64,000 bases of DNA from Alphaproteobacteria bacterium. GTDB lineage: Bacteria > Pseudomonadota > Alphaproteobacteria > JAAEOK01. Location: the NCBI GenBank assembly GCA_024244705.1, contig JAAEOK010000064.1, forward strand, positions 1 through 64,000. The letters run 5' to 3'. The position numbers were made by a program, and so were the translations under genes. Below, one piece after another: positions 7,168 to 60,782 of this stretch. The notes under the pieces are model-generated. The model saw nothing but the letters and a program-made list of their open reading frames with translations, was not told the DNA's origin and searched no databases. How positions within the stretch are numbered: the stretch's first letter is position 1; the number at the start of each line of letters is the position of its first letter.

Positions 7168-8060
7168 TATGTTTGGGGTGCCATTGGTCGGCTATAGTCT
7201 TTGCCGAACCATTTTTCCGACAAGCGGGAAAGTGTTCGATCCGCGCGCATCTCGTCGACGATCCTTTTGAGCTCTTCGGTAAGCTCGGGGTCTCCCTTCT
7301 CGGTCGCGACGGCGAGCGGCTCATAGAAGACCACGCCTGTCAGCAAACGCAGTGGAATTGCATCTTCGATCATCGCCTGCAGCGTCGGTTCGGCAGCGAT
7401 CACGGCGTCGATTTCGCTGCTGTCCGATCGACCGAGTGCCTCGCCGGCTGCCCACTCGTTGGGGAACGTTCTCGCCTCAACATTCAGTGCAACATCGCCT
7501 TTGACCGAGAACTTTTTTGGAATCGACAGACTGTTGGTAATGAAATATTCGTAACTACAATCGCGGCACACGCCGACGATCGATTTGCCTTCTTTTTTTG
7601 GCGCTGCGCCCGCGTTCAAGTCCGCGACATCCTCGTAACGAGTTTCATCCACACGGACCGCTACTCTTACCGGGGAAAAATAGTAGGCGGTTGGAAAATC
7701 GAGCCATTGCATACGATCAACCGTCGGCATCATTGAATTCACCGCGATTTCCCATCGACCGCGCCACATTCCCGACACTACCAACTCCCACGGAGGCGCT
7801 TTGAATTCGGCACCGACCCCTAATCGGTCGGCGATTTCGCGGGCAACATCGACATCAAATCCCTGCCACTCTCCGTCCACATCCTGGAACGATTGTGGCG
7901 CATAGTCCTCATTGACTGCGACGACGAGTGTGTTGCTGTTCTTAATCCGCTCGAGGACTTCGCCGGCCCAACTAGGAGAGCCGATCATCAGCATAACGAC
8001 TGAAAAGAGCACACCGCGCCCGAGCGCACTGTGCCATTCCCTTCGACGTCTTAGTTGCAT
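7167..8060 (-). CDS. Orphan family 3 solute-binding protein
   Basis: The 297-residue protein has a signal peptide (basic start, hydrophobic core LFSVVMLMIG, cleavage near SWAGE). A periplasmic binding fold of the amino-acid type follows: LVVAVNEDYAPQSFQDVDGEWQGFDVDVAREIADRLG, a WDIAV-like block (WEIAVNSMMPTVDRMQWLDF) and a C-terminal LSRLSEKWFGKDYS. A Cys pair (GVCRDCSY) may form a disulfide. No ABC permease or ATPase gene is nearby. Its gene overlaps the end of the cyclase gene by 10 bases and the start of the DUF3326 gene by one. It therefore more likely serves as a sensor or partner of the cyclase than as part of an importer; that role is inference. Confidence 0.8.
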   Translation of the reverse strand: MQLRRRREWHSALGRGVLFSVVMLMIGSPSWAGEVLERIKNSNTLVVAVNEDYAPQSFQDVDGEWQGFDVDVAREIADRLGVGAEFKAPPWELVVSGMWRGRWEIAVNSMMPTVDRMQWLDFPTAYYFSPVRVAVRVDETRYEDVADLNAGAAPKKEGKSIVGVCRDCSYEYFITNSLSIPKKFSVKGDVALNVEARTFPNEWAAGEALGRSDSSEIDAVIAAEPTLQAMIEDAIPLRLLTGVVFYEPLAVATEKGDPELTEELKRIVDEMRADRTLSRLSEKWFGKDYSRPMAPQT

Positions 8061-9862
8061 GTCCCAGATAATCCGGCTTTCGCCAACCCTTCACAAAGGC
8101 GGACATTATCCGATTCATTGCTGAAGGACCAGTATTGCACATCGCGCAAGGTGTAAGCGGCCTCGCCGGACTGTCGTCTCATGTCCTGAACGATTTCAGC
8201 TTCGTGCTGGGCCTGGCCAACCTCTCCAAGTTGACCGAGCGTCGCCGCTAGCAGAAGGTGTGTCCAATCATCTTCTCGATTTAGCTCGAGCGACATGCGT
8301 AACGCCCGTCTCGCGTTTTCATAGTTCTCGAGAATATAGTCTGCCAATCCTATCCAGAAGAGATAGTCTGCGCGGTTCAACGGATCGACCTTGCTTGCCT
8401 CGTCCAGATAATTGAGCGCCTCTTTCGGATTCCCGGCATAGATCAGAGCAATCGCCATGGTAAGTCGACCGACCGGATCATTAGGATCTAAGCTTTCAGC
8501 CTCTTTGGCTGCCTCGAGAGACTTCTCGAAATCACCCTCCCAAGCCAGTACGCGCGATTGCACTTGATATGTTAGTGCAATCGGAGCTTTCAACGATTGC
8601 TCGAGGTTTTGCAGCGCTAAATTGAGCGTCTGTTGAGTACCCAAACCAAGGGCATTGGACCAGTCGCGATCGAAACCCGCCCAGTAAATTGCGGCCAAAT
8701 AGGCATAGGCAACGGTGAAATTCGGGTCCAATCGAAGGGTTTCTTCGAACAGGCGTTTTGCAAGAGCGAGTTGGTCCGGTTGGTCGATGAAATAGGCCTC
8801 ACGCGCTCTGAAGAACAGATTTCTTAACGCAAAATCGGAAACCGACGTCGATCGCGGCCGTGTGCGACCACCGAGCTTGATTTCGACCGCCTCGAGAACC
8901 TTGTTTGTAATTTCGTGCTGAAACGCGAATAGCTGCGACGTGCTGCCGTCAAACCGCGCAGCCCACAATTGCCGTCCGGTAGACGCGTCATTCAAGGAAA
9001 CGTTCACCCGAATATCGTCGGCCCGCCGAAAAACCGTTCCCTCCACGACATACCTTGCGCCGAGAAGGCGAGTCACTTCCTCGAGATCGACGGGTCTTTG
9101 TTGATAGCGAAAGGATGAGCTTCGAGCGACGACCGATGCAGACTCGATCTGGGATAGGTCGACAATGAGATCGGTTGCGATGCCGCGGGCAATATGATCT
9201 TGGTCGGCATCTCCGCTTAGATTCTCGAACGGTAAGACCGCGATGGCCTCGTCAGCTTGTGCGTTTGGCGAACCAAGTAACCCAGGCACGATCTGCTGGC
9301 CAAAGGCGAAGACAAGGACGGCCGCAACGACAACCGCGGAGGCCGTGACGGGTACCCATGGTCGAAGGACGCGCCGGCGCCAGACCCGCCACAATCGCAT
9401 TGGCCCTCTACTCTTGGGTCGGATCCGGCGATCTATGTCCGTTGGTCGTACGCGATAAACTCGTACGGGCTCGGCAATGTTCTTTAGCCATCGTTGACCC
9501 ATTTCTTCATACGGCAAGAGCACTTTGTTGTGGACTTCGCGATAGGCCGACCCCGAGAGGGCCAACCCACCCGGCTCACACAGCCCCTCCAAGCGCGCGG
9601 CGAGATTGACGCTCTCGCCGGCAACGTCGTCACCATCGAGGATAATGTCGCCAAAGTTGATGCCAATTCTCATGCGAACTGCACTGCCGTCCGCGACCGC
9701 GGAATTTTCGGTCGCCAAAGCCGACTGTATGCGGCAAGCGCACTCGACCGCATCCACCACGCTGTCAAAGAGACCGAGCATGGAATCCCCGCCGGACCAC
9801 TGCACAGAGCCGCCGAATGCGTCGATCTGTTCCTGAATGACCTCATTCTTAAGCCAAGCCAA
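8051..9862 (-). CDS. Adenylate/guanylate cyclase with TPR repeats
   Basis: Read from a TTG at 9862 the protein has 603 residues: a class III cyclase domain (about 1-125, with GGDSMLGLF and MRIGINFGDIILDGDDVAGESVNLAARLE), a membrane helix (about 170-195), a FlgO-like block (AIAVLPFENLSGD ... ARYVVEGTVFR), then TPR repeats to the end. Homology clearly continues upstream in the same frame (AIIAGDLAGYSRLIERDELG, about 9875-9934), including the first metal-binding Asp. Yet no ATG, GTG or TTG lies between 9862 and the in-frame TAA at 9983-9985. Either a rare start codon is used or the 5' end is damaged. It is the first gene of the island operon and overlaps the SBP gene. Confidence 0.8.
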   Translation of the reverse strand: MAWLKNEVIQEQIDAFGGSVQWSGGDSMLGLFDSVVDAVECACRIQSALATENSAVADGSAVRMRIGINFGDIILDGDDVAGESVNLAARLEGLCEPGGLALSGSAYREVHNKVLLPYEEMGQRWLKNIAEPVRVYRVRPTDIDRRIRPKSRGPMRLWRVWRRRVLRPWVPVTASAVVVAAVLVFAFGQQIVPGLLGSPNAQADEAIAVLPFENLSGDADQDHIARGIATDLIVDLSQIESASVVARSSSFRYQQRPVDLEEVTRLLGARYVVEGTVFRRADDIRVNVSLNDASTGRQLWAARFDGSTSQLFAFQHEITNKVLEAVEIKLGGRTRPRSTSVSDFALRNLFFRAREAYFIDQPDQLALAKRLFEETLRLDPNFTVAYAYLAAIYWAGFDRDWSNALGLGTQQTLNLALQNLEQSLKAPIALTYQVQSRVLAWEGDFEKSLEAAKEAESLDPNDPVGRLTMAIALIYAGNPKEALNYLDEASKVDPLNRADYLFWIGLADYILENYENARRALRMSLELNREDDWTHLLLAATLGQLGEVGQAQHEAEIVQDMRRQSGEAAYTLRDVQYWSFSNESDNVRLCEGLAKAGLSGTCN

Positions 9863-10079
9863 GCGCTTAAGCGTGCCGAGTTCGTCGCGTTCGATCAGCC
9901 GACTATAGCCGGCGAGATCGCCAGCAATAATCGCCTTTAGTCGCCGAACTTTCTCTTGGCTATCGATCGCCTTACAAAGCCGTTACCAGCGCTCAATTTG
10001 CCGATGCCGGCTCCTCCCAAGTGGAGACGCAATCCTACCCCTACATACAAGTCTATTGGCTGTAACACACTACGTCATC

Positions 10080-10091
10080 GACAATATTGTC
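10080..10091. promoter_or_regulatory. 12-bp palindrome upstream of the cyclase operon
   Basis: GACAATATTGTC is a perfect palindrome in the AT-rich, gene-free stretch 9986-10221 that must hold the promoter of the minus-strand operon. It could be a regulator site; nothing else is clear in this stretch. Confidence 0.25.
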
Positions 10092-10221
10092 TTGCGACCG
10101 ACGTATACGACAATTTTCTCACGACATGGCCCCACGCGTGGAAACCTTGGCCGCGAAGACCCGCCGCATTGCCGAGACAACGCATTGATGCTCTCTCGTA
10201 GACTCAAAGCGAACGCGTAAA

Positions 10222-10274
10222 TGATCCCGATCGACATTCTCCGCCAACAGCTCCGCTCCGAGCTTCATTAGGGC
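10222..10274 (+). repeat. Right direct repeat (attR-like), displaced ccrM 3' end
   Basis: It encodes the same last 16 residues and stop as ccrM, but has no gene upstream in frame. It is followed by GGGCAAAAGCCCC, a small hairpin that may have been the original ccrM terminator. The gap 10275-10530 shows no other gene. Confidence 0.8.
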
Positions 10275-10530
10275 AAAAGCCCCGCTACGCATTGCCGTCG
10301 CGGCAAGGTTTCGGCGCAGCGGTGGCCCAGGCACGACCGCTGCGGTGTTTTCTGCTATCATGCGCGATGAGGCGGAACCTGCACGGCCTCCGGCACATTC
10401 GCCGGCCGACGCGGGATCCCGCCGCTCCGGCGGCAATCGGCGGCGTGGGCAAGACGCCGACGGCGGCTGTATGCCCGGTGAGCGCATTGGTGCTGGCCCG
10501 GCGCCGGACGAAGTTGGTTGGAGAAGCCCG

Positions 10531-10902
10531 ATGAACAGAAGACCGATTATCGTCGCCATCGCCGCGGTCATGTTCGCCGCCGCGGCGACGACGGCGATGG
10601 CGCAAAGAATTACCATTTCGCCGCCGATCGATGCGCTGCCGAGCGACGATCTCAACCTGATCCTGTCGGCCGAAGATGCGCTCTACGCCGCCGCGGCGCC
10701 CGAGGTCGGGACGACCGAAGTGTGGGAGAATCCGGCCAATGGCGACCAGGGCACGGCCGTGCTCACGGAAATCTACGAGTGGCGCGGCCTGCCGTGCCGC
10801 AAGATCGAGCACCGCGTCCTGGTCGCCGGCCATTCGGACTATCGCGGTGTCGCCATCGACCGCTGTCGGATCGCAACCGGCGAGTGGAAGATCCGCTATT
10901 AG
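10531..10902 (+). CDS. Small secreted protein with 17-kDa-surface-antigen-like C-terminus
   Basis: The 123-residue protein has a signal peptide (MNRRPIIVAIAAVMFAAAATTAMAQ, cleavage after AMA). Its C-terminal half (WRGLPCRKIEHRVLVAGHSDYRGVAIDRCRIATGEWKIRY) resembles the C-terminal domain of the 17-kDa/RT0821 surface antigen family, with a conserved Cys pair and final Trp. The usual glycine-zipper part is absent, so it is a short member at most. The function is unknown, probably in the cell envelope. An open frame reaches upstream to 10345, but the signal peptide fixes the start at 10531. Confidence 0.7.
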   Translation: MNRRPIIVAIAAVMFAAAATTAMAQRITISPPIDALPSDDLNLILSAEDALYAAAAPEVGTTEVWENPANGDQGTAVLTEIYEWRGLPCRKIEHRVLVAGHSDYRGVAIDRCRIATGEWKIRY

Positions 10903-11009
10903 CCACGGCGGCGGCGCGCCGGAAGGCGGCGCGATCCCAATAACGATATTGCGGTGGGCCACCGAATCCGGTCAAGATAGGGTCTGACAAGCTGAACAGG
11001 GAGGGAGAC

Positions 11010-31759: not shown

Positions 31760-33406
31760 ATGCTGAACGAACTGACCAAAAACGAACTCTATCTGGGACT
31801 CGTCCTGGCCGTAATCGTGGCATTGCTAGGCCTGCTTATCGCATTCGCCGGACAGAATACCCTGCTCGGCGTGCACGGCTGGATTATCCTGGTCTTTGGC
31901 CTGATCGCCACTTTCGTGGTCATAGCCGGGTGCGTGGATCATGGTCCCTCTGTCGATCGCCTCGAAGGCCGCAATCTAGAATATTACGACGCCCCGACGC
32001 GTGTCGGCATCGTGATTGCCATGATCTGGGCGGTGATCGGGTTTTTTGTCGGCGACTGGGTGGCCTGGTCATTGGCCTATCCGGACTTCAATCTGGACCA
32101 GTCCTGGAGCAATTTCGGACGACTTCGGCCGGTCCATACGTCGGCGGTGATTTTCGGCTTCGGCGGCAACGCGCTCATCGCGACCTCGCTCCACGTCGTG
32201 CAGCGCACGTCGCGGGCCCGACTGCCCGATTCACTCAGTCCGTGGATTGTTTTCGCCGGATACAACCTGTTTTGCATCCTGGCGGCCACCGGCTACCTGA
32301 TGGGCATTACCCAATCCAAGGAATACGCGGAGCCGGAATGGTATGCCGATATCCTGCTGACCGTCGTCTGGGTCGTCTATTTCGTCCTCTACCTGAGAAC
32401 GCTCGCGCGGCGGTCGGAACCGCACATCTATGTCGCGAATTGGTACTACCTCGCCTTCATACTTGTGGTGGCGATGCTGCACATCGTCAACAACCTGGCA
32501 ATTCCCGTTTCTCTGGGCCATGCCAAGAGCTATTCCCTATTCGCCGGAGTTCAGGATGCGATGACCCAGTGGTGGTACGGGCACAATGCCGTCGCGTTCT
32601 TCCTGACCGCCGGATTCCTGGGCATGATGTACTACTTCCTGCCGGTCAAGGCGCAGCGGCCGATCTATTCCTACCGCATGTCGATCGTGAGCTTTTGGGG
32701 AATCACGTTTCTCTATATGTGGGCCGGCTCACACCACCTCCATTACACGGCGCTGCCTGACTGGGTTCAGACCCTCGGCATGTCCTTTTCCATCATGTTG
32801 CTGGTGCCGTCTTGGGCCTCCGCGGCGAATGCCCTGCTGACCCTCAACGGGGCCTGGCGTCGAGTACGGGACGACGCGGCGCTGCGGTTCATGATGGTTG
32901 CGGCGGCCTTCTACGGCCTGTCCACTTTCGAGGGCTCGTTCATGGCGATCCGGCCGGTGAATTCGCTGTCCCACTATACCGACTGGACCGTCGGTCATGT
33001 GCATGCCGGCGCGCTCGGCTGGGTCGCGTTCATAACCTTTGGTGCGATCTACACGTTGGTGCCGTGGCTGTGGAAACGGCCCGGCATGTATTCCAATCGC
33101 CTCGTCGAGGTGCATTTCTGGTTCGCCCTCATCGGCACCGTCATCTACGTCATCGCGATGTGGAATTCTGGGATCATCCAGGGCCTCATGTGGCGCACCT
33201 ATAACGAGTTCGGCACATTGGAGTATTCGTTCCTCGATTCGCTGGAAGCCATGCACCCCTACTACGTGGCCCGTGCGATCGGTGGGTTGTTCTTCCTCGC
33301 TGGCGGCGTGGTTGCGTTCTACAACATATACAAGACCATCTCGACGATCGGCCCGGAAACCAAGGCCGGCGACCAGCCGCTCCCGACCTCGCAGCCGGCG
33401 GAGTGA
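31760..33406 (+). CDS. ccoN: cbb3-type cytochrome c oxidase subunit I (CcoN)
   Basis: The 548-residue heme-copper oxidase subunit has a low-spin heme b and the heme b3-CuB centre. The CuB/heme region is seen in [20 protein letters not shown] and [18 protein letters not shown], and [18 protein letters not shown] near the C-terminus carries a conserved His. An extra N-terminal hydrophobic segment precedes the core. cbb3 oxidases have high oxygen affinity and work at low oxygen. It is the first gene of ccoN-O-Q-P-x-S. Confidence 0.95.
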
Positions 33407-33414
33407 GATCGGGC

Positions 33415-34149
33415 ATGCTGGACAAACACAAGAGTGTCGAGCGCCATTCCCTGGCTTTGGTCCTGATGATCATTGTCGTCGCGTCCATCGGCGGAATTGT
33501 TGAGATTGCCCCGCTGTTCACGATCGACAAGACCGTCGAGGATGTCGAGGGCATCCGGCCCTACACGCCGCTCGAACTCGCTGGCCGAAACATCTACATC
33601 CGCGAGGGATGCTACGCCTGTCACTCGCAGATGATTCGCACCTTGCGCGACGAAGTCGAACGCTACGGCCACTACAGCCTCGCCGCCGAATCGCAATACG
33701 ACCATCCGATGCTGTGGGGCTCGAAGCGAACCGGACCCGATCTCGCCCGCGTCGGCGGCAAGTATTCCGACGCCTGGCATGTCGCCCACCTCACGCGTTC
33801 CCGTGACGTGGTGCCGCAATCTAACATGCCGAATTACAGGTTTCTCGCCGGCACCCCGCTGCGCACCGATGACTTGAACCTGCACCTCGAGGCGCTACGC
33901 GCCGTGGGCGTGCCCTATACCGATGAGCAAATCGCGGCGGCGGCGGCCGATGCGCGCGGTCAGGCCGATCCCGACAGCGAGGCTGCGGACGGCGTCATCG
34001 AAAGGTATGGAGACCGGGTCGCAGTCCGCGATTTCGGTGGCGATGGCGCCAAGGTTTCCGAGATGGACGCCCTCGTCGCCTACCTGCAAATGCTGGGAAC
34101 CTTGGTCGATTTCGAGAGCACCCAGAGTGCGAACATGGGCGCGAACTGA
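33415..34149 (+). CDS. ccoO: cbb3-type oxidase subunit II (CcoO), monoheme cytochrome c
   Basis: The 244-residue subunit has one N-terminal membrane helix (LALVLMIIVVASIGGIVEIAPLF) and one heme c site (CYACHS). The distal Met is probably in QSNMPNYRFL, near the typical block DHPMLWGSKRTGPDLARVGGKYSD. A GTG at 33403 overlapping the ccoN stop is an alternative start. Confidence 0.95.
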   Translation: MLDKHKSVERHSLALVLMIIVVASIGGIVEIAPLFTIDKTVEDVEGIRPYTPLELAGRNIYIREGCYACHSQMIRTLRDEVERYGHYSLAAESQYDHPMLWGSKRTGPDLARVGGKYSDAWHVAHLTRSRDVVPQSNMPNYRFLAGTPLRTDDLNLHLEALRAVGVPYTDEQIAAAAADARGQADPDSEAADGVIERYGDRVAVRDFGGDGAKVSEMDALVAYLQMLGTLVDFESTQSANMGAN

Positions 34150-34152
34150 GCG

Positions 34153-34326
34153 ATGATCGATTTCTCTTATGATTCGCTCGCCTATTTCGCCAAGTCGTGG
34201 GGCCTGTTCTACTTCATCGCGTTTTCGATTGCGGTCCTGGTCTACGTCCTGTGGCCATCGAACAAGAAGACGTTTGATCGCGCGGCCAATCAGATCCTGG
34301 ACGACGAGGACAAACCATGTCGGTAG
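34153..34326 (+). CDS. ccoQ: cbb3-type oxidase subunit CcoQ
   Basis: This short gene of 57 residues (MIDFSYDSLAYFAKSWGLFY ...) has one membrane helix (FYFIAFSIAVLVYVLWP) and a polar tail ending DDEDKPCR. The position between ccoO and ccoP and the LWPSNKKTFDRAANQIL block fit CcoQ/FixQ, which stabilises the oxidase. It overlaps ccoP by 10 bases. Confidence 0.85.
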   Translation: MIDFSYDSLAYFAKSWGLFYFIAFSIAVLVYVLWPSNKKTFDRAANQILDDEDKPCR

Positions 34327-35180
34327 GCGAACGCGACCCCCATACCGGGATCCATACGACGGGCCATGAATGGAGCGGCATAAAGGAGCTGGACACGCCG
34401 ATCCCGCGGATCGTCTTCGCCTGTTATGCCGTTGTTTTCATCGTCGCTCTCGTGATGTGGGTGCTTCTCCCGGCGTGGCCGCTGGTCAACTCCTACACAT
34501 CCGGGCTGATGGGGTTCTCACAACGCGATTACGTTCGGGGCCAATTGGCCGACGCGGATCTACGCCGCGCGGAATGGTCGGATCGGATTGCCGCAATGGA
34601 CTTCGGCGAATTGGCGGCCGATCCGGAAGCCCGTACCGTCGCGATCGAAACCGGAGAAAGCCTGTTCATCGACAACTGCGCCGTCTGCCATGGCCGGGAT
34701 GGAAGGGGCGGTCCTGGATTTCCGGACCTGACCGACGGGGCGTGGCTGTGGGGCGGCACGCCGGAAGACATCCACGAAACCCTCCGCGTCGGCATCAACT
34801 CCGGCCATGACGAGACCCGATTCGGGCAAATGCCGGCCTTTGGCAGGGATGAGATGCTCGAACGCGACGAAATCCGATTGCTTGCCACCTACGTTCAGCA
34901 CCTGTCCGGTTTGGAAGAGGCGGACGGCGATACCGTGGCGCAGGGCGAAGTGCTCTTCGCCGACAACTGCGCGAGCTGTCACGGCGAGGATGCCCGCGGC
35001 GGAATCGAATTCGGCGCACCCGATCTCACCGACGGCTACTGGATATACGGCGGCGACCGCGAAACCATCTACGAGAGCCTATTTCGTGGCCGACAGGGGC
35101 ATATGCCGCACTGGAGCGGACGTCTCAGCCCGGTCCAGCTCAGGGTGCTGTCGCTCTACGTCGATAGCCTGAATCAGTAG
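34317..35180 (+). CDS. ccoP: cbb3-type oxidase subunit III (CcoP), diheme cytochrome c
   Basis: The 287-residue subunit has an N-terminal membrane helix (RIVFACYAVVFIVALVMWVLLP) and two cytochrome c domains with heme sites CAVCH and CASCH. GIKELDTPIPR before the helix is the family signature. It receives electrons from soluble or membrane cytochromes and passes them to CcoO and CcoN. Confidence 0.95.
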   Translation: MSVGERDPHTGIHTTGHEWSGIKELDTPIPRIVFACYAVVFIVALVMWVLLPAWPLVNSYTSGLMGFSQRDYVRGQLADADLRRAEWSDRIAAMDFGELAADPEARTVAIETGESLFIDNCAVCHGRDGRGGPGFPDLTDGAWLWGGTPEDIHETLRVGINSGHDETRFGQMPAFGRDEMLERDEIRLLATYVQHLSGLEEADGDTVAQGEVLFADNCASCHGEDARGGIEFGAPDLTDGYWIYGGDRETIYESLFRGRQGHMPHWSGRLSPVQLRVLSLYVDSLNQ

Positions 35181-36377: not shown

Positions 36378-36608
36378 TTGCAAACTCGTCTTCCACGCTA
36401 ACCTGGCCGCATTATACCACGCCGGAACCGATCGCCCATCGTCTATGCTCGACTTTGGATGACCGATCGCATGGTCGTCGACCGATAAGCTTTCGGACCA
36501 TAACCCGATCGCCGGCAGATCTGAGATTAATTCTCGAACGTCGGCCGCGGGAGCGGTATTCGCGCTGCCGTCTGAAACTTTTTTTCGCCATCTGTGTACC
36601 GTTGAGTC

Positions 36609-37283
36609 ATGAGCGGAATTTCTTCTTCTCAACGCATGATCGGGCTGGTGGCTGTACAATCGAACGATCCCTCAATCGAAGAGCGGCGGCGGCAGGTGAT
36701 TGATCTCGAATCGCGAACTTGGCTGAGCCGCCATTGCCGCGGTGACACCGGCGCGTTCCCCGCCCTCCTCGAAGCCTATCGGCGGCCGGTTTTCGGCTAT
36801 CTGGTGCGGAGCGGCGTGGCGGCGGCGGATCGCGAGGATATCTTCCAGAGCATCTTCCTCAAGGTCCATGCGGCGGCCAAGTCCTACGATCCGGCGCGAC
36901 CCCTGAAACCGTGGCTGTTCACCATCGTGGCCAATACGGTGCGCAATCATTTTCGCAGCCGGCCGGCCCATCTGGTCGCCGTGACCGGCGGCGACCCGCC
37001 GGAAACGACGGATCCCAACCCGGGCCCGGAACAAGTCGCCGAAGCGCGCGAAACGCTGGCGTGGCTCGAACAGGCGCTGCTCGCCCTGCCGCCGGCGCAA
37101 CGCGAGGTGCTGCTGCTCGCCACCGTCATCGGCCTGCCCCAGCAAGAGATCGCCGAGGCATTGCACCTGCCGCTCAACACCGTCAAGACGCACCTGCGCC
37201 GCGCCCGCCTCGCGCTGGCCGCCGGCCGAGCCGAACGCGAGGCAACGGACGGGTGCCATGGAGATACCGATGAAGCGCTGTGA
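36609..37283 (+). CDS. ECF-type RNA polymerase sigma factor
   Basis: The 224-residue sigma factor has region 2 (about 45-110: AFPALLEAYRRPVFGYLV ... DREDIFQSIFLKVH and RPLKPWLFTIVANTVRNHFR) and region 4 (about 150-205: LLALPPAQREVLLLATVIGLPQQEIAEAL, then LPLNTVKTHLRRARLAL). Its gene overlaps that of a zinc-finger anti-sigma factor fused to a VWA domain, the standard arrangement of a sigma and its inhibitor. TGAAAC (36573-36578) stands near the start and could be an ECF -35 box, but the -10 spacing is poor. The gap 36378-36608 has no gene. Confidence 0.92.
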   Translation: MSGISSSQRMIGLVAVQSNDPSIEERRRQVIDLESRTWLSRHCRGDTGAFPALLEAYRRPVFGYLVRSGVAAADREDIFQSIFLKVHAAAKSYDPARPLKPWLFTIVANTVRNHFRSRPAHLVAVTGGDPPETTDPNPGPEQVAEARETLAWLEQALLALPPAQREVLLLATVIGLPQQEIAEALHLPLNTVKTHLRRARLALAAGRAEREATDGCHGDTDEAL

Positions 37284-39993
37284 CCTTGTTCGACAGAGGC
37301 TGGCGGAGGACGGGGCCGCCATTGCCGAAATGGATATCGAAATCCGGCACCACCTCGAAACCTGTCACGACTGCACCCGGTTCGCCGCCGAGCTGAAGCG
37401 TCTCGAGGCGGAATTGAACGACCTTTCCTGCCCCGACGCGCCGGACGAGCTGGTCGCCGCGACCCTGGAGGCGGTGCGGCGGACGGCAGGCGCTGAAAGC
37501 GACACGACGTGGAGCGGCGGGCGCGGTCGTTACGTTGCCGGCGGCCTGGCCGCCGCCGTGGTCATCGCGGCGAGTGTGGCCCTGACCCTCAACATCATGG
37601 AATCGACGGCGCCGTATCGAGCGGCCGACCGAGAATACGCCGACGCCGGTGGTGGGCTGGGCGCGAGCGAGGAGCAGGTCGCAACCGGGCTTTACCGACC
37701 GCAGCCGCCGGCGGAGTCGCAAAGCGCGGCCGAGCCGCCGCGTTCCGACCTGGAGATTGCCGGCGCGATCGATGAATCCTCGCGGGTGACGGGCCAGCGG
37801 GAGAATGTCGCCGGTAGCGAGAACGAAGAATTCGAGATCGCCGAGTTGGCCGGGAACGAGGGCCTGTTCGGCGACCTGCGGTCGCGAGCGGCAGGCCAAT
37901 CGTTGCTCGCCGAATCGGAGATCATCGCCCAACTCAAGAACCAACGGCGCGACGCCGATTCCTCCGACGATTTCGCCAAGGAAAATCGTCGCGGTGGTGG
38001 CGAGAAGGATGTCGTGGCCACACTCGAACGTGGACTGGTCCCCGAGACCTCGGCGCCGGTGGGCAAGGCGAAAGGCGACCGCCGGTATCACGGCGCGCCG
38101 GCCGCTCCCCCCGCCCAGGCAAGCAAGCAGGAGAGCCGGTCGGCGTCCGAGTTCGGCAGCGAACTCTACGACACGCCCGGGGACGACGTCTTTGCCGCCG
38201 GCGCCGGCTCGGTTACCGGGCCCGCCGACGAGAAGAAGGCAGCGACCAAATCGCTCGACAAGGGCCGGGCGGAAAACGTGCCGGATGCAGATCCCGTGAT
38301 CGCCGGTGACGCCGGCGTGGCGGGAGGTCTATCGGGTAACGCGAACGCACCGCTCGGCGGCCTCGTCCAATCGGAAGAGAACAAGCGGCGCGCCGTCGAC
38401 ATCCTTTCCACTTCGGATCGGACGCGGCAACCGGCGGATGATTTCCTCACATCCTACCGCGCGCTCGATGGCCTGACCTTCCAGGAGCCAACCGGCTATT
38501 GGGCCAACACCTATATCCCGGGCGATCCCGAGATGCGCCTGCTGCAGGCTCGGCTGGCGGCGTGGAACCGCGCGGCGCTGGGCTCCGACGTTCGACTCGA
38601 ACAGGCGGTGCATCCCATCGAGCAGCCGTTCGACGCCCCGCGTGATGCGGCGCTGGCGGTGTATCTCGACGCCGACACCGCCGCCATCGAGGGCGAGACC
38701 CGGCTGCGCATCCAGGTTGGCCTCAAGGGCGCCGAGCGCCAGGGCGGGCACCGGCCGGCGATGAACATCGGCGTCGTCCTCGATCTGCTGTCCGGTGCCG
38801 ACGGCGACATGGCGACCCGGATCCGCGCCCTGATGACGGCGCTCGAGCGCATGGACCAGCCCGGTGACCGCTTTTCGCTGACCGTCGCCGGGCCGTCCGG
38901 CGGCCGGTTGATCGCACCCGATCAGTTCAAGCACGGCCCCTTGCAGATCACCCTCGACCGGTTATTCGACAGCGATGCGGCAGGCGGTGGTCAGAATGTC
39001 GAATTACTGGACGCGGTAGCGCGGGCCGCGGACGGCGTGCGCCAGGGCGACGATCCCAACGCCATCCTCGGCTCGAGCCTGGTGCTGCTGGTCACCGGCG
39101 ACTCGCTCGATGACGACATCGACATGCTGGAACGGCTCGCCCACCGCAATGCGATCGGCGGTGTGCCGTTGAGCGTGGTGAGCCTGGGAACGCAGGCGGA
39201 GCTGGCGAATATCGACCGCCTGGTCGCGGCCGGCCAGGGCAGCCGGCGGATTCTGGCCTCACCGGCCGAGGCGATGGCGCTCGTCGACCGCGAATTGCAC
39301 GCCGCGAGCGGCGCCGTGGCGCGCGCGGTCCGGCTTCGCATTCGGCTCGCCGCGGGGGTCAGGCTGATCGACGTCTTGGGCTCGCGGCCGCTCGGCGAGC
39401 CGCACGCCGAACGCGTACGCGAGGCCGAACAGGCGATCGACCAGCGGCTGGCCCGCAACCTCGGCATCGAAGCCGATCGCGGCGACGACGAGGAGGGCAT
39501 CCAAATCGTGATCCCGAACTTCTTTGCCGGCGATTCCCATGTCGTCCTGCTCGACGTGGTTGCCGACGGGCCCGGACCGGTCGCCGAGGTGACGGTGCGC
39601 TATAAGGACGTGATCGGTTTGCGCAACGGGATCACGCGCGCCAGCCTCGCAATCGGCGGCGGCCAGCGGGCGGACGGCTTGTTGGAGCGCAATGTCCTCA
39701 AGAACTTGGTCGCCTGGGAAATTGCCCGAGGGCTGCGCGAAACCGGCCGGGATCTCGGCGATTTGCCGCGGGCGATCGCGCGGCTGGCCGACCTGCGCGA
39801 TCTGGTCGCCGGGCTGCGGCTCGCCGTCGTCGGCTGGTCGGGCGACCCCGACCTGGCCGCCGACGAGGCCATGCTCGGGACGTATCTGGCGGTCCTCGGC
39901 TCATCCGCCATGGCCGATACGGTTCACCGTCACCACCTAGCCGAATCCCTGCGCTACGCGGCCTTCCGCAAGCTCCAGGTCGCGGCCCGCTAA
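37270..39993 (+). CDS. Zinc-finger anti-sigma factor fused to a degenerate VWA/YfbK-like protein
   Basis: The 907-residue protein is read in this order. A ZAS-type anti-sigma zinc finger (HxxxCxxC, LETCHDC, residues 28-35) comes first, then one membrane helix (about 88-110) and a long low-complexity Gly/Ala/Glu-rich linker (about 111-385). Next is the YfbK N-terminal block (FLTSYRALDGLTF ... GYWANTYIPGDP), then a VWA fold (about 495-660) and a DUF3520-like C-terminus. The metal site of the VWA is degenerate: DLLSG replaces DxSxS. The cytosolic end should hold the ECF sigma factor and the periplasmic VWA may sense a partner. The ATG at 37270 has GGAG 6 bases before it; 37258 is an alternative. 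Confidence 0.82.
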   Translation: MKRCDLVRQRLAEDGAAIAEMDIEIRHHLETCHDCTRFAAELKRLEAELNDLSCPDAPDELVAATLEAVRRTAGAESDTTWSGGRGRYVAGGLAAAVVIAASVALTLNIMESTAPYRAADREYADAGGGLGASEEQVATGLYRPQPPAESQSAAEPPRSDLEIAGAIDESSRVTGQRENVAGSENEEFEIAELAGNEGLFGDLRSRAAGQSLLAESEIIAQLKNQRRDADSSDDFAKENRRGGGEKDVVATLERGLVPETSAPVGKAKGDRRYHGAPAAPPAQASKQESRSASEFGSELYDTPGDDVFAAGAGSVTGPADEKKAATKSLDKGRAENVPDADPVIAGDAGVAGGLSGNANAPLGGLVQSEENKRRAVDILSTSDRTRQPADDFLTSYRALDGLTFQEPTGYWANTYIPGDPEMRLLQARLAAWNRAALGSDVRLEQAVHPIEQPFDAPRDAALAVYLDADTAAIEGETRLRIQVGLKGAERQGGHRPAMNIGVVLDLLSGADGDMATRIRALMTALERMDQPGDRFSLTVAGPSGGRLIAPDQFKHGPLQITLDRLFDSDAAGGGQNVELLDAVARAADGVRQGDDPNAILGSSLVLLVTGDSLDDDIDMLERLAHRNAIGGVPLSVVSLGTQAELANIDRLVAAGQGSRRILASPAEAMALVDRELHAASGAVARAVRLRIRLAAGVRLIDVLGSRPLGEPHAERVREAEQAIDQRLARNLGIEADRGDDEEGIQIVIPNFFAGDSHVVLLDVVADGPGPVAEVTVRYKDVIGLRNGITRASLAIGGGQRADGLLERNVLKNLVAWEIARGLRETGRDLGDLPRAIARLADLRDLVAGLRLAVVGWSGDPDLAADEAMLGTYLAVLGSSAMADTVHRHHLAESLRYAAFRKLQVAAR

Positions 39994-40026
39994 TTACCGA
40001 CCCGTACTGTCGAAAGGCTCCGAACC

Positions 40027-43000
40027 ATGCGACGTCTGCTCTTTCTGCTTGCCTTGATTCTGGTTTCACCGGCCACCGCCGAGGAACTCGGCCCGCGGTC
40101 GACGGGTGAGGTCCGGGTACCGTTGGCCGATTACACGGCGATGATCGAACGGCTGGCCCGGGAACCGCGCCGCGCTCCCGCCGCCTACGCCATCGGTCGG
40201 TCGAACGTCGTCGTCGACGTGGCCGACCGCGAAGACCGTTTCACCGCCACCGTCACCGTCACCGTCGCGATCGAAACCTTCGAGGACGAATGGACCCTGG
40301 TGCCCATCCTGCCCCACGGCGCGGCGCTCACGCGGGCCGTCGTCGATGGCGGTCCGGCGCAGCTCGTGGATGCCCCCGACGGGATCGCCTGGAGCACGGA
40401 CCGCGCCGGCACTGTCACGATGGAACTGACCTATGGCGTCGACGCCCGCAGCTACGCCGGCGGCTATGTCCTGTCCCTGGCCGTGCCCCGCGCGGCGGCG
40501 ACGACTTTCAGCGCGACCTTGCCAGACACCGCCGGCGACGTCGCGGTGGTGCCGTCGGCGGAGCTGCAGCGCAGCGACGTTGCCGGAGCCACGCGGGTGA
40601 CCGCGGCGGTGCCGGCGACATCCTCGATCCTGGTCTCGTGGCGCGCCCCAAGCGGCCGTGCGTTCGCCATCAGCCGTGCCGATTACAGCGGCGTGCTGCG
40701 CGATATGGCCGTGGTCTGGAGCGGCCGGTTCGAGGTCGAAATCTTCGGCGACGAACGGATCACCCTGCCGGTCATTCCGAACAGCGTTACCATCAACGAC
40801 CTGCGGATCGACGGCGAGACCGCGACCGTGCTCGATGAGGACGGAAACTTCGCGACCCTGGTCGAGGGACCGGGGAAGCATCAAGTCGAGGTCGCGTTTC
40901 AGGTGCCCGTCGTCGGCGACACCGGCCCGCCGCAGGCCCGCTTACGAATTCCTCGTATTCCGGTTTCCCGGTTCGAGCTCGTGCTGCCGGGACGGAAAGA
41001 GGTGCGCGTGGCCCCGGGTGCCGACGTGGTGACGGTCGAAGGCGAAGACACGACGACCGCGACGGCATTCATCCCGATGAGCGACAGCGTGGTCTTCACC
41101 TGGACCGAGGCGGTGCCGCAAAACCTGCGCGGCCAGGTGCGGGCGAATGCCAGCATCTATCACGCCATCCACGCCGAAGAGGGCGTCCTGCACGCCGCGG
41201 GCACGATCGTCTACGAAATCACCCATGGCGAGACCAATCGGCTCGAACTGGAAATCCCGAACGATGCCCAGGTCAACCGCATCGCCTCGCCATCGGGCGG
41301 GGTCTCGGACTGGGCGGTGGCGCTGGGGGAGGAAGCGGGCCGCAAGAAGGTCAGCGTCTTCCTCGAACGCCCGGTAAGCGGCGAATACGTGCTTGCGATT
41401 GCCTATGAGCGCCTGCTCGGTTCGGATGCGGAGGCGCTCGCCTCCATCGTTGTTCCCTTGCTCAGCGCCGACAGCGTCCAGCGCCAACGCGGCATGGTCG
41501 CGCTGCTGTCCGGGCCCGAACTCACGCTGCGGCCGGAATCCGACGACGGGCTGTCGAAGGTCGGCGAGAACCAGTTGCCGGCCTTCATCCGCAACCAGAT
41601 CGCGATGACAGTCGCCCATACGTTCAAATATATCGATCCGACGCCCACGCTGGTCGTCGCCGCGGCGGCGCCGGAGCGCAAGCAAGGCAGGTTCAACGCC
41701 CAGGTCGACACCCTGATCTCGCTGGGCGACGTCACCATGAAGGGCTCAGCGACGGTCGAGATCGACATCAAATCCGGCACCATCGTCGATCTCCGCCTGA
41801 GCGCGCCGCAGAGCGTCAATGTGCTGGCGGTGTCCGGCCCATCGCTCAGGACGCACCTGGTCCGCGAGGTCGATGGCGGCCAGGCCATCGAGTTGGAGTT
41901 CACCCGCGAAATGGAGGGGCAGTTCCGCGTCGAGGTGGCCTACGAGAAAATCATGGATGCCGGCGCCGGCGAATCGACCGTCCCGACCATTTCGGTCGTC
42001 GGCGCCGAAGTCGAGCACGGCCGCATCGCCGTCGAGGCGCTGACCGCGGTCGAGGTCAGCACCGCCGCGGTCGAACGGCTGTCGAACCTGGACATCAACG
42101 AATTGCCGCAGCAATTGGTGCTCAAGACGACCAATCCGATCCTGCTCGCCTTTCGCTACGTCAACGCCAGGCCGCCATTCCGCCTCGCGCTGAGGATCAC
42201 CCGGCACAATGAAATCGATGTGCAGGTCGCCGCCATAGAGCGGGCCGACTACCGATCCCTCTTGACCCGCGACGGGCTGGCGGTGACGACGGCGCGGCTC
42301 ATCGTGCGCAACAGCCGGCGCCAGTTTCTGCGTCTCGACCTGCCGCCGAATTCCGAAATCTGGTCGGTCTTCGTCGACGACAAAGCCGAGAAGCCGGCCT
42401 ATGCCGGCGGCGGCACCAACGGCGACGGGTCGGCCGTCCTCGTCAAACTGATCAACTCCGCCAAGGGATTTCCAATCGACCTCGTCTACGCGACCCCGGC
42501 CGATCCGATTCGCCATATCGGCACAGTCTCGAGCGTGCTGCCGCGGCCCGACATGGTCGTCACCCATAGCCGCTGGGACGTCTTCCTCCCCGACGGTCCC
42601 GCCTATCTGACCCCCGACAGCACGATGGATCTGGTCGTCGGCGGCGTACCGGTCAACCCGAGCGCCGCCGGCGGCGTCATCTTGGCGCGGGCGGCCGACG
42701 CCTATCAGACGGAGATGGGGCAACCGCTCAGGATCACGGTGCCGACCCGCGGCATCCAGTTTGCCTTCGAGAAGCTTTATGCCAGCCAGTCGCCCGAGCC
42801 GGCGGCGTTCTCGATTCGCTATGTTTCCGAGAATACCAACAAGGTCGCCATCGCGCTGAGCGCCGTCGGCGTGATCATGCTGTGGATTGGCATCGTCGCG
42901 CTTGCCGGCCGCCGATTGCCGCTGTCGAGATACGGCACAATCGCCGTGCTTGCCGGCGGCCTCGCCCTGCTTGTCCTGACCACCGGCTACCTCGGCGCGA

Positions 43001-43083
43001 GCCCGATCATCGCCGCGGCCCTGGCCCTCGTTGTCGCCGCCGGGCTGGGCTTGTGGGCCGGCGCCGAGCGCTGGCGCGCATGA
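40027..43083 (+). CDS. Large secreted protein with C-terminal membrane helices, unknown
   Basis: The 1018-residue protein has a signal peptide (MRRLLFLLALILVSPATA), then about 900 residues that look like repeated beta-sandwich domains, and three membrane helices at the end (about 937-1012) with a short basic tail. There is no heme, metal or catalytic motif that I can see. Similar designs occur next to ECF sigma/anti-sigma genes in other bacteria, but I do not recognise a named family. It lies 33 bases behind the VWA/anti-sigma gene and is probably in its operon, so it is the likely partner or output of that system. Confidence 0.7.
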   Translation: MRRLLFLLALILVSPATAEELGPRSTGEVRVPLADYTAMIERLAREPRRAPAAYAIGRSNVVVDVADREDRFTATVTVTVAIETFEDEWTLVPILPHGAALTRAVVDGGPAQLVDAPDGIAWSTDRAGTVTMELTYGVDARSYAGGYVLSLAVPRAAATTFSATLPDTAGDVAVVPSAELQRSDVAGATRVTAAVPATSSILVSWRAPSGRAFAISRADYSGVLRDMAVVWSGRFEVEIFGDERITLPVIPNSVTINDLRIDGETATVLDEDGNFATLVEGPGKHQVEVAFQVPVVGDTGPPQARLRIPRIPVSRFELVLPGRKEVRVAPGADVVTVEGEDTTTATAFIPMSDSVVFTWTEAVPQNLRGQVRANASIYHAIHAEEGVLHAAGTIVYEITHGETNRLELEIPNDAQVNRIASPSGGVSDWAVALGEEAGRKKVSVFLERPVSGEYVLAIAYERLLGSDAEALASIVVPLLSADSVQRQRGMVALLSGPELTLRPESDDGLSKVGENQLPAFIRNQIAMTVAHTFKYIDPTPTLVVAAAAPERKQGRFNAQVDTLISLGDVTMKGSATVEIDIKSGTIVDLRLSAPQSVNVLAVSGPSLRTHLVREVDGGQAIELEFTREMEGQFRVEVAYEKIMDAGAGESTVPTISVVGAEVEHGRIAVEALTAVEVSTAAVERLSNLDINELPQQLVLKTTNPILLAFRYVNARPPFRLALRITRHNEIDVQVAAIERADYRSLLTRDGLAVTTARLIVRNSRRQFLRLDLPPNSEIWSVFVDDKAEKPAYAGGGTNGDGSAVLVKLINSAKGFPIDLVYATPADPIRHIGTVSSVLPRPDMVVTHSRWDVFLPDGPAYLTPDSTMDLVVGGVPVNPSAAGGVILARAADAYQTEMGQPLRITVPTRGIQFAFEKLYASQSPEPAAFSIRYVSENTNKVAIALSAVGVIMLWIGIVALAGRRLPLSRYGTIAVLAGGLALLVLTTGYLGASPIIAAALALVVAAGLGLWAGAERWRA

Positions 43084-43156: not shown

Positions 43157-43681
43157 CTAGTCCGGCCGCAGGTCCCGGCTGACGGCGAGGTCGTGCTCGC
43201 TCATCTGAAACCCGGCCCAGATGCGATAGGCGCCGCCGCTCTGGCCCTTGAGGAACTGATATTTCTGCCAGATGCCTTCGCTCTCGGTAACCGGCTCGCC
43301 GACCGACCCGAGATCCATTTCGACCTCGAAGACTTCCTTGCTGAGCACGGTTCCGCGGACATCGGTGATGGCGATGAAATACGCGAACTCCGCCACACCG
43401 GTCTTGTTCGCCGCGCCGCGCCGCGCCGTAATATCGAGGTCCATGTTGACCTCGAGTTCGGTCAGCAGGTCGTCGACATAGCCGCACTGAAGACCGGTGA
43501 CTTTCATCTTGGCCTGGTAGTCGAGATTGCTGACGTTGGCCGGCCCGCCCGGCGCGAAGCGCACCAATTCGCCGGTCCGGTCGAGGACCAGGGGACGCGG
43601 ACAGGTACTGGTGGGTTCGATGCAGGACGCCAACACCAGGGCCGTCGCCAGCAGCGCGGCGGGCATCCGCCACCGTTTCAC
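43157..43681 (-). CDS. Lipoprotein of unknown function
   Basis: The 174-residue protein has a lipoprotein signal (MKRWRMPAALLATALVLASC, lipobox LASC) followed by TCPRPLVLDRTGELVRFAPG and a beta-rich domain of about 130 residues (TELEVNMDLDITARR ... EFAYFIAITDVRGTVLSKEVFEVEMDL). The GTG at 43681 is preferred because AAGG stands 6 bases before it and it gives a compact signal; ATGs at 43708 and 43666 are alternatives. The family is not recognised. The gap 43084-43156 to the convergent large gene holds nothing clear. Confidence 0.65.
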   Translation of the reverse strand: MKRWRMPAALLATALVLASCIEPTSTCPRPLVLDRTGELVRFAPGGPANVSNLDYQAKMKVTGLQCGYVDDLLTELEVNMDLDITARRGAANKTGVAEFAYFIAITDVRGTVLSKEVFEVEMDLGSVGEPVTESEGIWQKYQFLKGQSGGAYRIWAGFQMSEHDLAVSRDLRPD

Positions 43682-43716
43682 CGACGCCTTATATCCAGAA
43701 CAATTCATCGATCGAA

Positions 43717-43956
43717 CTACAGCCTGCCGTGGGTTCCGTCGCAGAAGGGCTTGTTGGCCGTATGCTTGCAGCCGCACAGATACACCTCGCCATCCTTTTC
43801 CGCGGTAAAGACGACCGGCGTCAGGTCGGTGACCTTGTGCGAACCATCGCAGAACGGCTGGGTGCTGCTGAGGCCGCAGGCGCACCAGGCGTATTTCTTG
43901 CCGGCCTCGACCGTGGCGGGATAAGGCTCCTTCTGGGGGGAAACGGGTTCCGTCAT
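43717..43956 (-). CDS. CDGSH iron-sulfur protein
   Basis: The 79-residue protein has two CDGSH-type motifs: CACGLSSTQPFCDGSH and CGCKHTANKPFCDGTH. Each supplies three Cys and one His for a [2Fe-2S] cluster. Small two-motif members are common in bacteria; an electron-transfer or redox-sensing role is likely but not proven. It lies just before the lipoprotein gene, on the same strand. Confidence 0.88.
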   Translation of the reverse strand: MTEPVSPQKEPYPATVEAGKKYAWCACGLSSTQPFCDGSHKVTDLTPVVFTAEKDGEVYLCGCKHTANKPFCDGTHGRL

Positions 43957-46139: not shown

Positions 46140-48284
46140 CTAGCCGCCGGCGCGGGCCCGGCGCAGTGCGTTCATGACCGCGTCGGAGGTCAGCAATTCC
46201 GGCAGCGGCAGGCCGCGCGGCGCGCCCGGTCCATAGACCGCGTTGAACGGAATACCGTAACGGCCGAAGCGGGCGAGATAGTCGGCGATGGCGTCGTCCG
46301 GGCGGGTCCAATCGGCGAGCATGGCGACGACATCGGCGGAGCCGAGTTCGCCGGCCACCGGTTCGGTGTCGAGAACGAAGCTCTTGTTTACCTTGCAGGT
46401 CAGACACCAATCCGCGGTGACATCGACGAACACCACCTTGCCGTCGCGCACCAGATCGCTGATCCGGCCGGCGGCAAACGGCGTCCATGCCGACGGCTCG
46501 CCGCTGGCGGCGGTGGCCGGGATTGGCCGGTCGCGGATGATCGCCGGGCCGGCAACCGCTAGACCGGCAACCACCAGTGCCAAGACCCAGGCCACGGCGC
46601 CGGCCGGCGGCACGAGGCGACGGCCAAGCCACAGCAGGGCGACGATCGCAACCATGGCGGCCAGGGTGGCGACGGCCGCCGACGCGCCGACTTGCGCCGC
46701 CAGCACCGAGAGCAACCACAGCCCGGTCCCGGCCAGCGCCGCACCGAGGATGCGGCGAAGCACAGCCATCCACGGTCCCGGCCGCGGCAGTCGTGTTGCC
46801 AGGGCCGGGAACGTCGCTACCGCCAGGTAGGGAATAGCCAGGCCGAGGCCGAGAACGAGGAAGACGGCAATGATTTCAATGGCCCCGCGCGACAGGGCGA
46901 AGCCCACGGCGGAGCCGAGGAACGGCGCCGAACACGGGGTCGCGAGCAGAGTGGCGAACGCGCCGGTGAGGAAGTGGCCGCGCAGCGAGGTGTCGTGGCC
47001 GGGGGTGCTGAATCGATCGGAAATGCCGCCAGGAAGGCGGATTTCGAATAGGCCCCACAGATTGGCCGCGAACAGGGTCAGGATCAAAGTCATCACGGCG
47101 AGGAACACCGGTTGCTGGAATTGAATTCCCCAGCCGACCGCCATGCCGGCCGATTTGACCACGATCAGCGCGACCCCGATGACCAGGAACGAGAACACGA
47201 TCCCGGCAGCCGTCGCCAGGAACCCGGCACGCACGTCGCCGGGGGCGCCACCGCCGTGCTTGACCACCGACAGAAGCTTGAGCGACAGCACCGGCAGGAC
47301 GCAGGGCATCAGATTGAGAATCAGGCCACCGGCCAAAGCGAGACCGAGAATACCCAACAGGGTCCCCAGCGTCGGTCCGCCGTCGGTGCCGGTAACGGCC
47401 GGAACCGGCACCTCCATGGCGCGAGACCCGTCGACCACGGTCAGGGTGATGTCCTTACCGGCCAGATCGGCGCTGTCCTTGCCAATGGTGCTGACATCGA
47501 TCTCGAAGACCGCCTCCCGCCGGTCGTCCGCAAAGGTCAACGTCGGAGCGCCGAATTCGAAGCGATCGGGCGCCTCGACATAGAGGTCGGGTTCCGAGAA
47601 CGGCGGGTCGGCGCTGGCGGCAACTCGCAGCAACTGCGCGCCACCGTGCCCGACGATGGTGGCTTCATTGACCGCCATGCCGACCGCCGCGCCATCGCCC
47701 GGGACCTGCGCCGCGAAACGATCGAGAAGCTGGGCGTAGGGGGTCGGGAACGCGGAACCGGAGGGCAGGCTCAGCGCGAGATCGGCCTCGTAGGGCACGC
47801 AGATCTCGTCGCAGGTCAGGTAATTGACCCGTGCGGCGATGGTCAGCGGGTCGCCCGGCCGCTGCAGCGCCACCGAGATCGGGAACACCACCTCGTCCTT
47901 GTAACCGAGGGTATCGAGGCCGAGGACGCTGAACCGCTTCGGCGCCGGCCACCGCATCACCGAATCGGCAAGGTTGTCGGAACCGGCCCAGTCGATAGAC
48001 GGTGGGAACCCGGCCGCGCCCGGATTACGCCAATACACCTTCCAGTTGGGAATGAGCTTGAATTGAAGTCCGAGTTGAACGGTGTCCGTCTCTCCGGTGG
48101 CCGTCGTCGCCGCGACCAGCCGGACCTCCGTCTGATCCGTCGTGACCCAGGGCGAGGCCGCGGCCATGGACGAGCTTTGGCCATGCGCCACCGCCGCCGC
48201 GCCAACCACCGCCAGCGCCGCGAGCAAGGGCACTCGCACAAGATTTACCGCAACCCACATCGTCCGGCCGAATAACGTCGTCAC
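46140..48284 (-). CDS. DsbD/ScsB-like thiol:disulfide reductase
   Basis: The 714-residue membrane protein passes electrons from cytosolic thioredoxin to periplasmic thiols. It has an N-terminal hydrophobic signal and an alpha domain of the ScsB type (about 45-290, with Cys in YLTCDEICVPYE). Eight membrane helices follow, with the redox Cys in NLMPCVLPVLSLK and LATPCSAPFLGSAVG, and a C-terminal thioredoxin-like domain with ADWCLTCKVNK. It is longer than classical DsbD and fits the ScsB-like group. The DsbA-like protein at 19.6 kb is a possible partner system. Confidence 0.9.
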   Translation of the reverse strand: MTTLFGRTMWVAVNLVRVPLLAALAVVGAAAVAHGQSSSMAAASPWVTTDQTEVRLVAATTATGETDTVQLGLQFKLIPNWKVYWRNPGAAGFPPSIDWAGSDNLADSVMRWPAPKRFSVLGLDTLGYKDEVVFPISVALQRPGDPLTIAARVNYLTCDEICVPYEADLALSLPSGSAFPTPYAQLLDRFAAQVPGDGAAVGMAVNEATIVGHGGAQLLRVAASADPPFSEPDLYVEAPDRFEFGAPTLTFADDRREAVFEIDVSTIGKDSADLAGKDITLTVVDGSRAMEVPVPAVTGTDGGPTLGTLLGILGLALAGGLILNLMPCVLPVLSLKLLSVVKHGGGAPGDVRAGFLATAAGIVFSFLVIGVALIVVKSAGMAVGWGIQFQQPVFLAVMTLILTLFAANLWGLFEIRLPGGISDRFSTPGHDTSLRGHFLTGAFATLLATPCSAPFLGSAVGFALSRGAIEIIAVFLVLGLGLAIPYLAVATFPALATRLPRPGPWMAVLRRILGAALAGTGLWLLSVLAAQVGASAAVATLAAMVAIVALLWLGRRLVPPAGAVAWVLALVVAGLAVAGPAIIRDRPIPATAASGEPSAWTPFAAGRISDLVRDGKVVFVDVTADWCLTCKVNKSFVLDTEPVAGELGSADVVAMLADWTRPDDAIADYLARFGRYGIPFNAVYGPGAPRGLPLPELLTSDAVMNALRRARAGG

Positions 48285-58318: not shown

Positions 58319-60782
<2,464 letters not shown>

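Follow-up and report, generated by a model that had tools for sequence, protein, structure and literature searches.

The window analyzed here is a 64,000-nucleotide stretch of an alphaproteobacterial contig (JAAEOK010000064.1, positions 1 to 64,000). Within it, three consecutive genes encode an ECF sigma factor, a membrane protein that combines a zinc anti-sigma motif with a VWA domain, and a very large protein, referred to here as the giant. The question raised by this locus is whether the three products form a single signaling device in which, as a sequence-only reading had proposed, the anti-sigma protein senses the giant across the membrane. We therefore examined the layout and conservation of the three genes, the domains of their products, and the occurrence of comparable systems elsewhere. 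All features described below are on the forward strand unless stated otherwise.

Gene organization

The ECF sigma factor gene (36609 to 37283; 224 aa, with an in-frame ATG also at 36636) overlaps the gene for the anti-sigma/membrane/VWA protein (37258 to 39993; 911 aa), and the giant gene (40027 to 43083; 1,018 aa) follows after a gap of 33 bp. Based on homology to the start of its G207 counterpart (MTICDTVQ), the second protein probably begins at 37270 (MKRCDLV), in which case the overlap with the sigma gene is 14 bp instead of 26. When the three genes were compared with their orthologues in G207, a genome from another order of the class, codon differences affected 0.53 to 0.58 of the third positions and 0.19 to 0.34 of the first two. 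This concentration at third codon positions indicates that all three genes are coding and translated. The arrangement described in the sequence-only reading, with an ECF sigma gene overlapping an anti-sigma gene and the giant gene following, was thus borne out by the positions of the ORFs, their coding character, and the sigma domains described below. Directly downstream of the giant gene is a minus-strand lipoprotein-like gene (43157 to 43885) with no Pfam or NCBIfam match.

Sigma factor and promoter-like site

The first gene product matched Pfam Sigma70_r2 (residues 53 to 118; E = 6.8e-13) and Sigma70_r4_2 (residues 151 to 203; E = 5.9e-17), both above cut-off, as well as the NCBIfam sigma70-ECF model with 88.8 bits against a cut-off of 42.9. 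With regions 2 and 4 present and regions 1 and 3 absent, it is a member of the ECF sigma-70 family. The best specific NCBIfam model was PRK12513, at 106 bits and below its 206-bit cut-off. The orthologue in G207 is 66% identical.

Just upstream of the sigma gene lies a predicted ECF-type autoregulatory promoter, TGAAAC-N14-TGTGTA (36573 to 36598). The same site precedes the G207 sigma gene (L006, 3807 to 3832), with 15 fixed bases and the spacing identical, and an alignment of the two upstream regions had one block of strong conservation (TGAAACYTTTT...TGTGTACC), immediately ahead of the start. The pattern TGAAAC-N-TTT-N10-TGTGTA with up to two mismatches was found once in the window, where 0.00 matches were expected. 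With at most one mismatch it was found once each in G000 and G207, always at the sigma-upstream site, and a control pattern gave no match. At the latter stringency, the operon itself is the sole predicted target of the site, and weaker sites are possible. A lone match in G678 (one mismatch) is located amid unrelated genes and was treated as chance. No match came from G655 and G664, as would be the case if the broken contigs of these genomes stop short of the site.

Anti-sigma/VWA protein

Near its N terminus, the second protein carries the zinc anti-sigma motif Hx3Cx2C in the form HLETCHDC (residues 32 to 39; 37351 to 37374), which is kept in G207 (HLEGCDDC) and L004 (HVNRCPKC). This motif marks the zinc-type class I anti-sigma domains (ASDI), where it lies across helices 2 and 3 (PMC7406223). 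By its motif sequence, the second protein falls into this class; the Pfam zf-HC2 model gave a weak match, below cut-off. The motif is followed by a single transmembrane helix at residues about 93 to 111 (37534 to 37590; hydropathy, 2.26), also found in G207 and L004, and then by a disordered, unconserved linker of about 300 residues (residues 113 to 411; 37594 to 38490). The linker is of low complexity, and its identity between the window and G207 (30.4%) is near the shuffled background (mean, 26.0; maximum, 32.1). The zinc-finger anti-sigma domain, membrane helix, and linker of roughly 275 residues noted in the sequence-only reading were all recovered. Beyond the linker, an alignment of the window, G207, G664, and L004 proteins revealed that a conserved segment starting with TGYWANTYIPGD (residues 412 to 477; 38491 to 38688) leads into the VWA domain, and from the start of this segment onward the window and G207 proteins are 64% identical.

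Residues 478 to 700 (38689 to 39357) are a VWA domain. Comparison by hhalign with YfbK-type VWA proteins gave an E value of 1.5e-8, against 0.66 for the reversed control, and a low-confidence structure model of this part aligned with solved VWA domains at Z 15.4 and an rmsd of 2.8 over 172 residues. This part of the protein is a genuine VWA Rossmann fold. The mean confidence was low in both structure models, at 51.8 for the VWA protein and 59.3 for the giant. The Pfam models vWF_A and YfbK_C did not match the window protein at E values up to 10, and similarity to YfbK_C (formerly DUF3520) in the C-terminal part spanned 13 columns only in the profile comparison. The YfbK/VWA/DUF3520-like part that had been proposed is therefore a true VWA domain, but its similarity to DUF3520 was not supported. 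A PDB sequence search with the giant and VWA profiles returned no match.

The best-known mode of ligand binding by VWA domains is through the MIDAS metal site. In the window family, the positions of DxSxS read DLLSG, DLRSL, or DLTGA, and those of TDGD read LVTGDS, LVTGAS, or LVTASP. The motifs DxSxS, GGST, and TDGD or SDGD were all kept in the five aligned YfbK-type proteins. Because the VWA domain of the window family is without the DxSxS and TDGD residues, its MIDAS metal site is gone, and metal-dependent ligand binding through MIDAS was rejected. Other VWA matches, in G182, G699, and G201, were ordinary MIDAS-type proteins with no adjacent sigma gene in the stretch examined.

Giant protein

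The giant has a signal peptide, tandem beta domains, and three C-terminal membrane helices. Hydropathy predicted helices at residues 4 to 22, 940 to 958, 966 to 984, and 994 to 1012. The last three (residues 940 to 1012; 42844 to 43062), which are all-helical in the structure model, come with one Arg-rich loop (GRRLPLSRYG), one uncharged loop, and an RWRA tail. Three C-terminal helices with R-rich inner loops indicate that the giant is anchored in the inner membrane, with its bulk in the periplasm, rather than secreted. The signal peptide and C-terminal helices of the sequence-only reading were retained, but a secreted surface protein was rejected because of the three helices.

In the N-terminal region, domains D1 and D2 (residues 50 to 364; 40174 to 41118) are an internal duplication (hhalign E = 2.2e-13) with a fold like that of the M1 aminopeptidase N-domain. 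A second internal duplication forms D3 and D4 (residues 368 to 700; 41128 to 42126; hhalign E = 4.3e-10), and comparison of D1 with D3 by hhalign was negative. The top Foldseek matches of D1-D2 were the M1 aminopeptidase N-domain and the oligosaccharyltransferase subunit OST1/ribophorin I; the match list was filled by D1-D2, with D3 to D5 barely covered. Against the N-domain of E. coli PepN, D1-D2 aligned at Z 13.8 and an rmsd of 3.4 over 158 residues. The resemblance to PepN and OST1 is one of fold only, at about 10% identity, and neither of the catalytic motifs HEXXH and GxMEN was found in any of the seven giant homologues. The giant was accordingly rejected as an M1 peptidase. Searches of the giant against Pfam and NCBIfam gave nothing above chance, and it represents a protein family without a name. 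In D3, the HxxHAEEGVLH cluster (residues 379 to 389; 41161 to 41193), which includes the HxxHAEE motif and has three invariant His and two invariant Glu residues, is invariant in 7/7 homologues and is possibly a metal site.

Distribution and gene neighborhood

Six homologues of the giant were found, with 45 to 64% identity to the window protein. They are encoded in G207, G655, and G664, which belong to one other order of the class, on the MAG contigs L003 and L004, and in the gammaproteobacterial MAG L005. The giant is rare, with homologues in 2 of 289 class genomes and 1 of 398 phylum genomes, and among 385 genomes searched, the only ones with close VWA homologues were the two giant-bearing genomes of the class. 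Searches of viral contigs, and of plasmids for the giant and VWA proteins, gave no match.

In six of the seven loci, namely the window, G207, G664, G655, L003, and L004, which span at least two unrelated lineages, the VWA gene immediately precedes the giant gene. This adjacency persists over 45 to 64% protein divergence and with differing flanking genes. The position of the sigma gene could be read in four loci; it is present in the window and G207 and absent in L004 and L005. The contigs of G655, G664, and L003 break off within the VWA gene, placing the sigma position beyond reach. Since VWA and giant are paired in 6/7 loci and sigma is present in two of the three checkable VWA-bearing loci, we regard VWA and giant as the conserved core and sigma as a companion. 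The proposed three-gene cassette is supported by the pairing itself and by the G207 sigma orthologue, which lies upstream under the conserved promoter-like site. A pattern in which giants are mostly encoded away from such sigma factors was not seen, and the giant was without a VWA neighbor in just one locus.

Two loci depart from the cassette. L004 has no sigma gene and no sigma remnant upstream of its anti-sigma-VWA gene. A transposase/integrase-like ORF (L004, 214 to 706), about 1.6 kb upstream of that gene, may account for the absence of sigma. In L005, the giant homologue (7932 to 10952; 45% identity) is encoded alone, with neither sigma nor VWA beside it, and no VWA homologue was found in that genome.

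Comparison with known systems

On plasmid p42c of R. etli CFN 42, RHE_RS23540 and RHE_RS23545 encode an ECF sigma factor and a VWA domain-containing protein with a 4-bp overlap, and the same ECF/VWA pair, again overlapping by 4 bp, is present in Ruegeria sp. B32. The overlapping Rhizobium pair of ECF and membrane-VWA-YfbK genes (L048, 2811 to 5431) is widespread on Rhizobium plasmids. A relative of the Rhizobium VWA protein was found in 113 Rhizobium plasmid records; a neighboring ECF gene was verified in R. etli and Ruegeria themselves, and the feature lists of numerous further records show one as well. As in these pairs, the window ECF gene overlaps a gene for a short N-terminal cytoplasmic part, one transmembrane helix, a linker, a VWA domain, and a C-terminal region. 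However, the Rhizobium/Ruegeria proteins lack Hx3Cx2C, have an intact MIDAS DxSxS, and match Pfam vWF_A and YfbK_C, whereas the reverse is true of the window protein. They also have a shorter linker and no giant gene beside them, in contrast to the longer tether and conserved third gene of the window. ECF/VWA pairs as such are therefore already known, and the window operon is a divergent, rare variant of a widespread pair. The claim that the system is not covered by the classical ECF groups was too broad in view of these pairs, although no study of an ECF/VWA pair or a VWA-type anti-sigma factor was found in the open-access literature, where published work may be missed. The operon points to a widespread pair for which the literature searched held no study, and it connects a protein family that has no name with a signaling switch open to testing.

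Two further families share parts of the second protein. The YfbK family (vWF_A, PF12450; YfbK_C, PF12034) has a VWA core homologous to that of the window, as the hhalign comparison above indicates, but the members examined start with a lipoprotein-like signal, whereas the window protein is without MIDAS and was hit by neither of the two Pfam models. Class I membrane anti-sigma factors (PMC7406223) share the zinc motif, the position right after the ECF gene, and the single helix, but in the window protein a VWA domain on a long tether makes up the periplasmic part.

Model and alternative explanations

The reading we favor, although tentatively and at slightly less than an even chance, is that the operon is an autoregulated envelope-sensing switch in which contact between VWA and giant in the periplasm controls sigma. 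The zinc anti-sigma domain would hold the ECF sigma factor at the inner membrane. Past the membrane helix, the flexible tether of about 300 residues would let the metal-independent VWA domain reach into the periplasm and dock there on the large ectodomain of the giant, itself anchored in the inner membrane. A change in this contact, through loss, load, damage, or a ligand on the giant, would free sigma, either directly or via proteolysis of the anti-sigma protein. Free sigma would then transcribe its own operon from TGAAAC-N14-TGTGTA, yielding more VWA and giant protein. From the gene order and its conservation, the domain anatomy, the zinc motif, the lost MIDAS, the topology signals, and the promoter-like site, all of which are observed, we infer the binding of sigma by anti-sigma and of VWA by giant, the direction of signaling, the identity of the signal, and any proteolysis.

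A periplasmic VWA-giant contact that controls sigma is plausible. The membrane helices of the two proteins put the VWA domain and the giant ectodomain on the periplasmic face of one and the same membrane. The switch is also consistent with the ECF domains, the overlapping gene for a zinc-motif membrane protein, the VWA-giant adjacency in 6/7 loci, the restriction of close VWA homologues to giant-bearing class genomes, the promoter-like site shared across orders, and the conservation of zinc motif, VWA, and giant beside an unconserved linker; the sigma-less L004, the giant alone in L005, the rarity of the operon, the lost MIDAS, and the low-confidence structure models argue against it. If the contact is real, a VWA domain would be serving as the sensor of an anti-sigma factor. 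A more specific form, which we consider unlikely, is a three-protein inner-membrane sensor whose tethered metal-independent VWA domain reads the state of the giant and whose ECF sigma controls mainly its own operon, so that the whole would be a homeostat for one envelope protein family.

The main rival, that the giant is an induced effector (output rather than input) while the sigma/anti-sigma-VWA pair senses something else, appears somewhat unlikely. The existence of ECF/VWA pairs without a giant partner speaks for it, as the two-gene Rhizobium pair must sense something else, and so do the operon shared by giant and sensor, with its single conserved promoter-like site, and the solitary giant of L005. 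However, the VWA-giant linkage is kept in L004, where sigma is missing, a pattern more in keeping with physical partners than with regulation only.

Such a partnership could also be structural, with VWA and giant forming an envelope structure or chaperone complex. The anti-sigma domain would then only report the assembly state of this complex in part of the lineages and be vestigial in the rest. No unit is better conserved than the VWA-giant pair (6/7 loci), sigma is missing in L004, and M1-N-domain-like beta repeats without HEXXH and GxMEN suggest a scaffold. Nevertheless, the zinc motif of L004 is intact (HVNRCPKC), which speaks against a decaying anti-sigma domain, and we judge this explanation improbable. 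An ordinary ECF/anti-sigma operon with a passenger gene, in which VWA and giant are functionally unrelated, is very improbable, since the adjacency is conserved despite the divergence and different flanking genes noted above, even though only seven loci are known and several are in fragmented draft assemblies.

Other genes in the window

Elsewhere in the window, positions 8051 to 9862 encode a 603-aa protein in which a weak match to adenylate cyclase, narrowly short of the cut-off, precedes TPR repeats. A gene for a DsbD-like thiol:disulfide interchange protein is located on the minus strand at 46140 to 48284. The window also contains two COX1-type oxidase genes (31760 to 35180 and 58319 to 60214), one accompanied by FixO- and FixP-like genes (cbb3 type) and the other located elsewhere.
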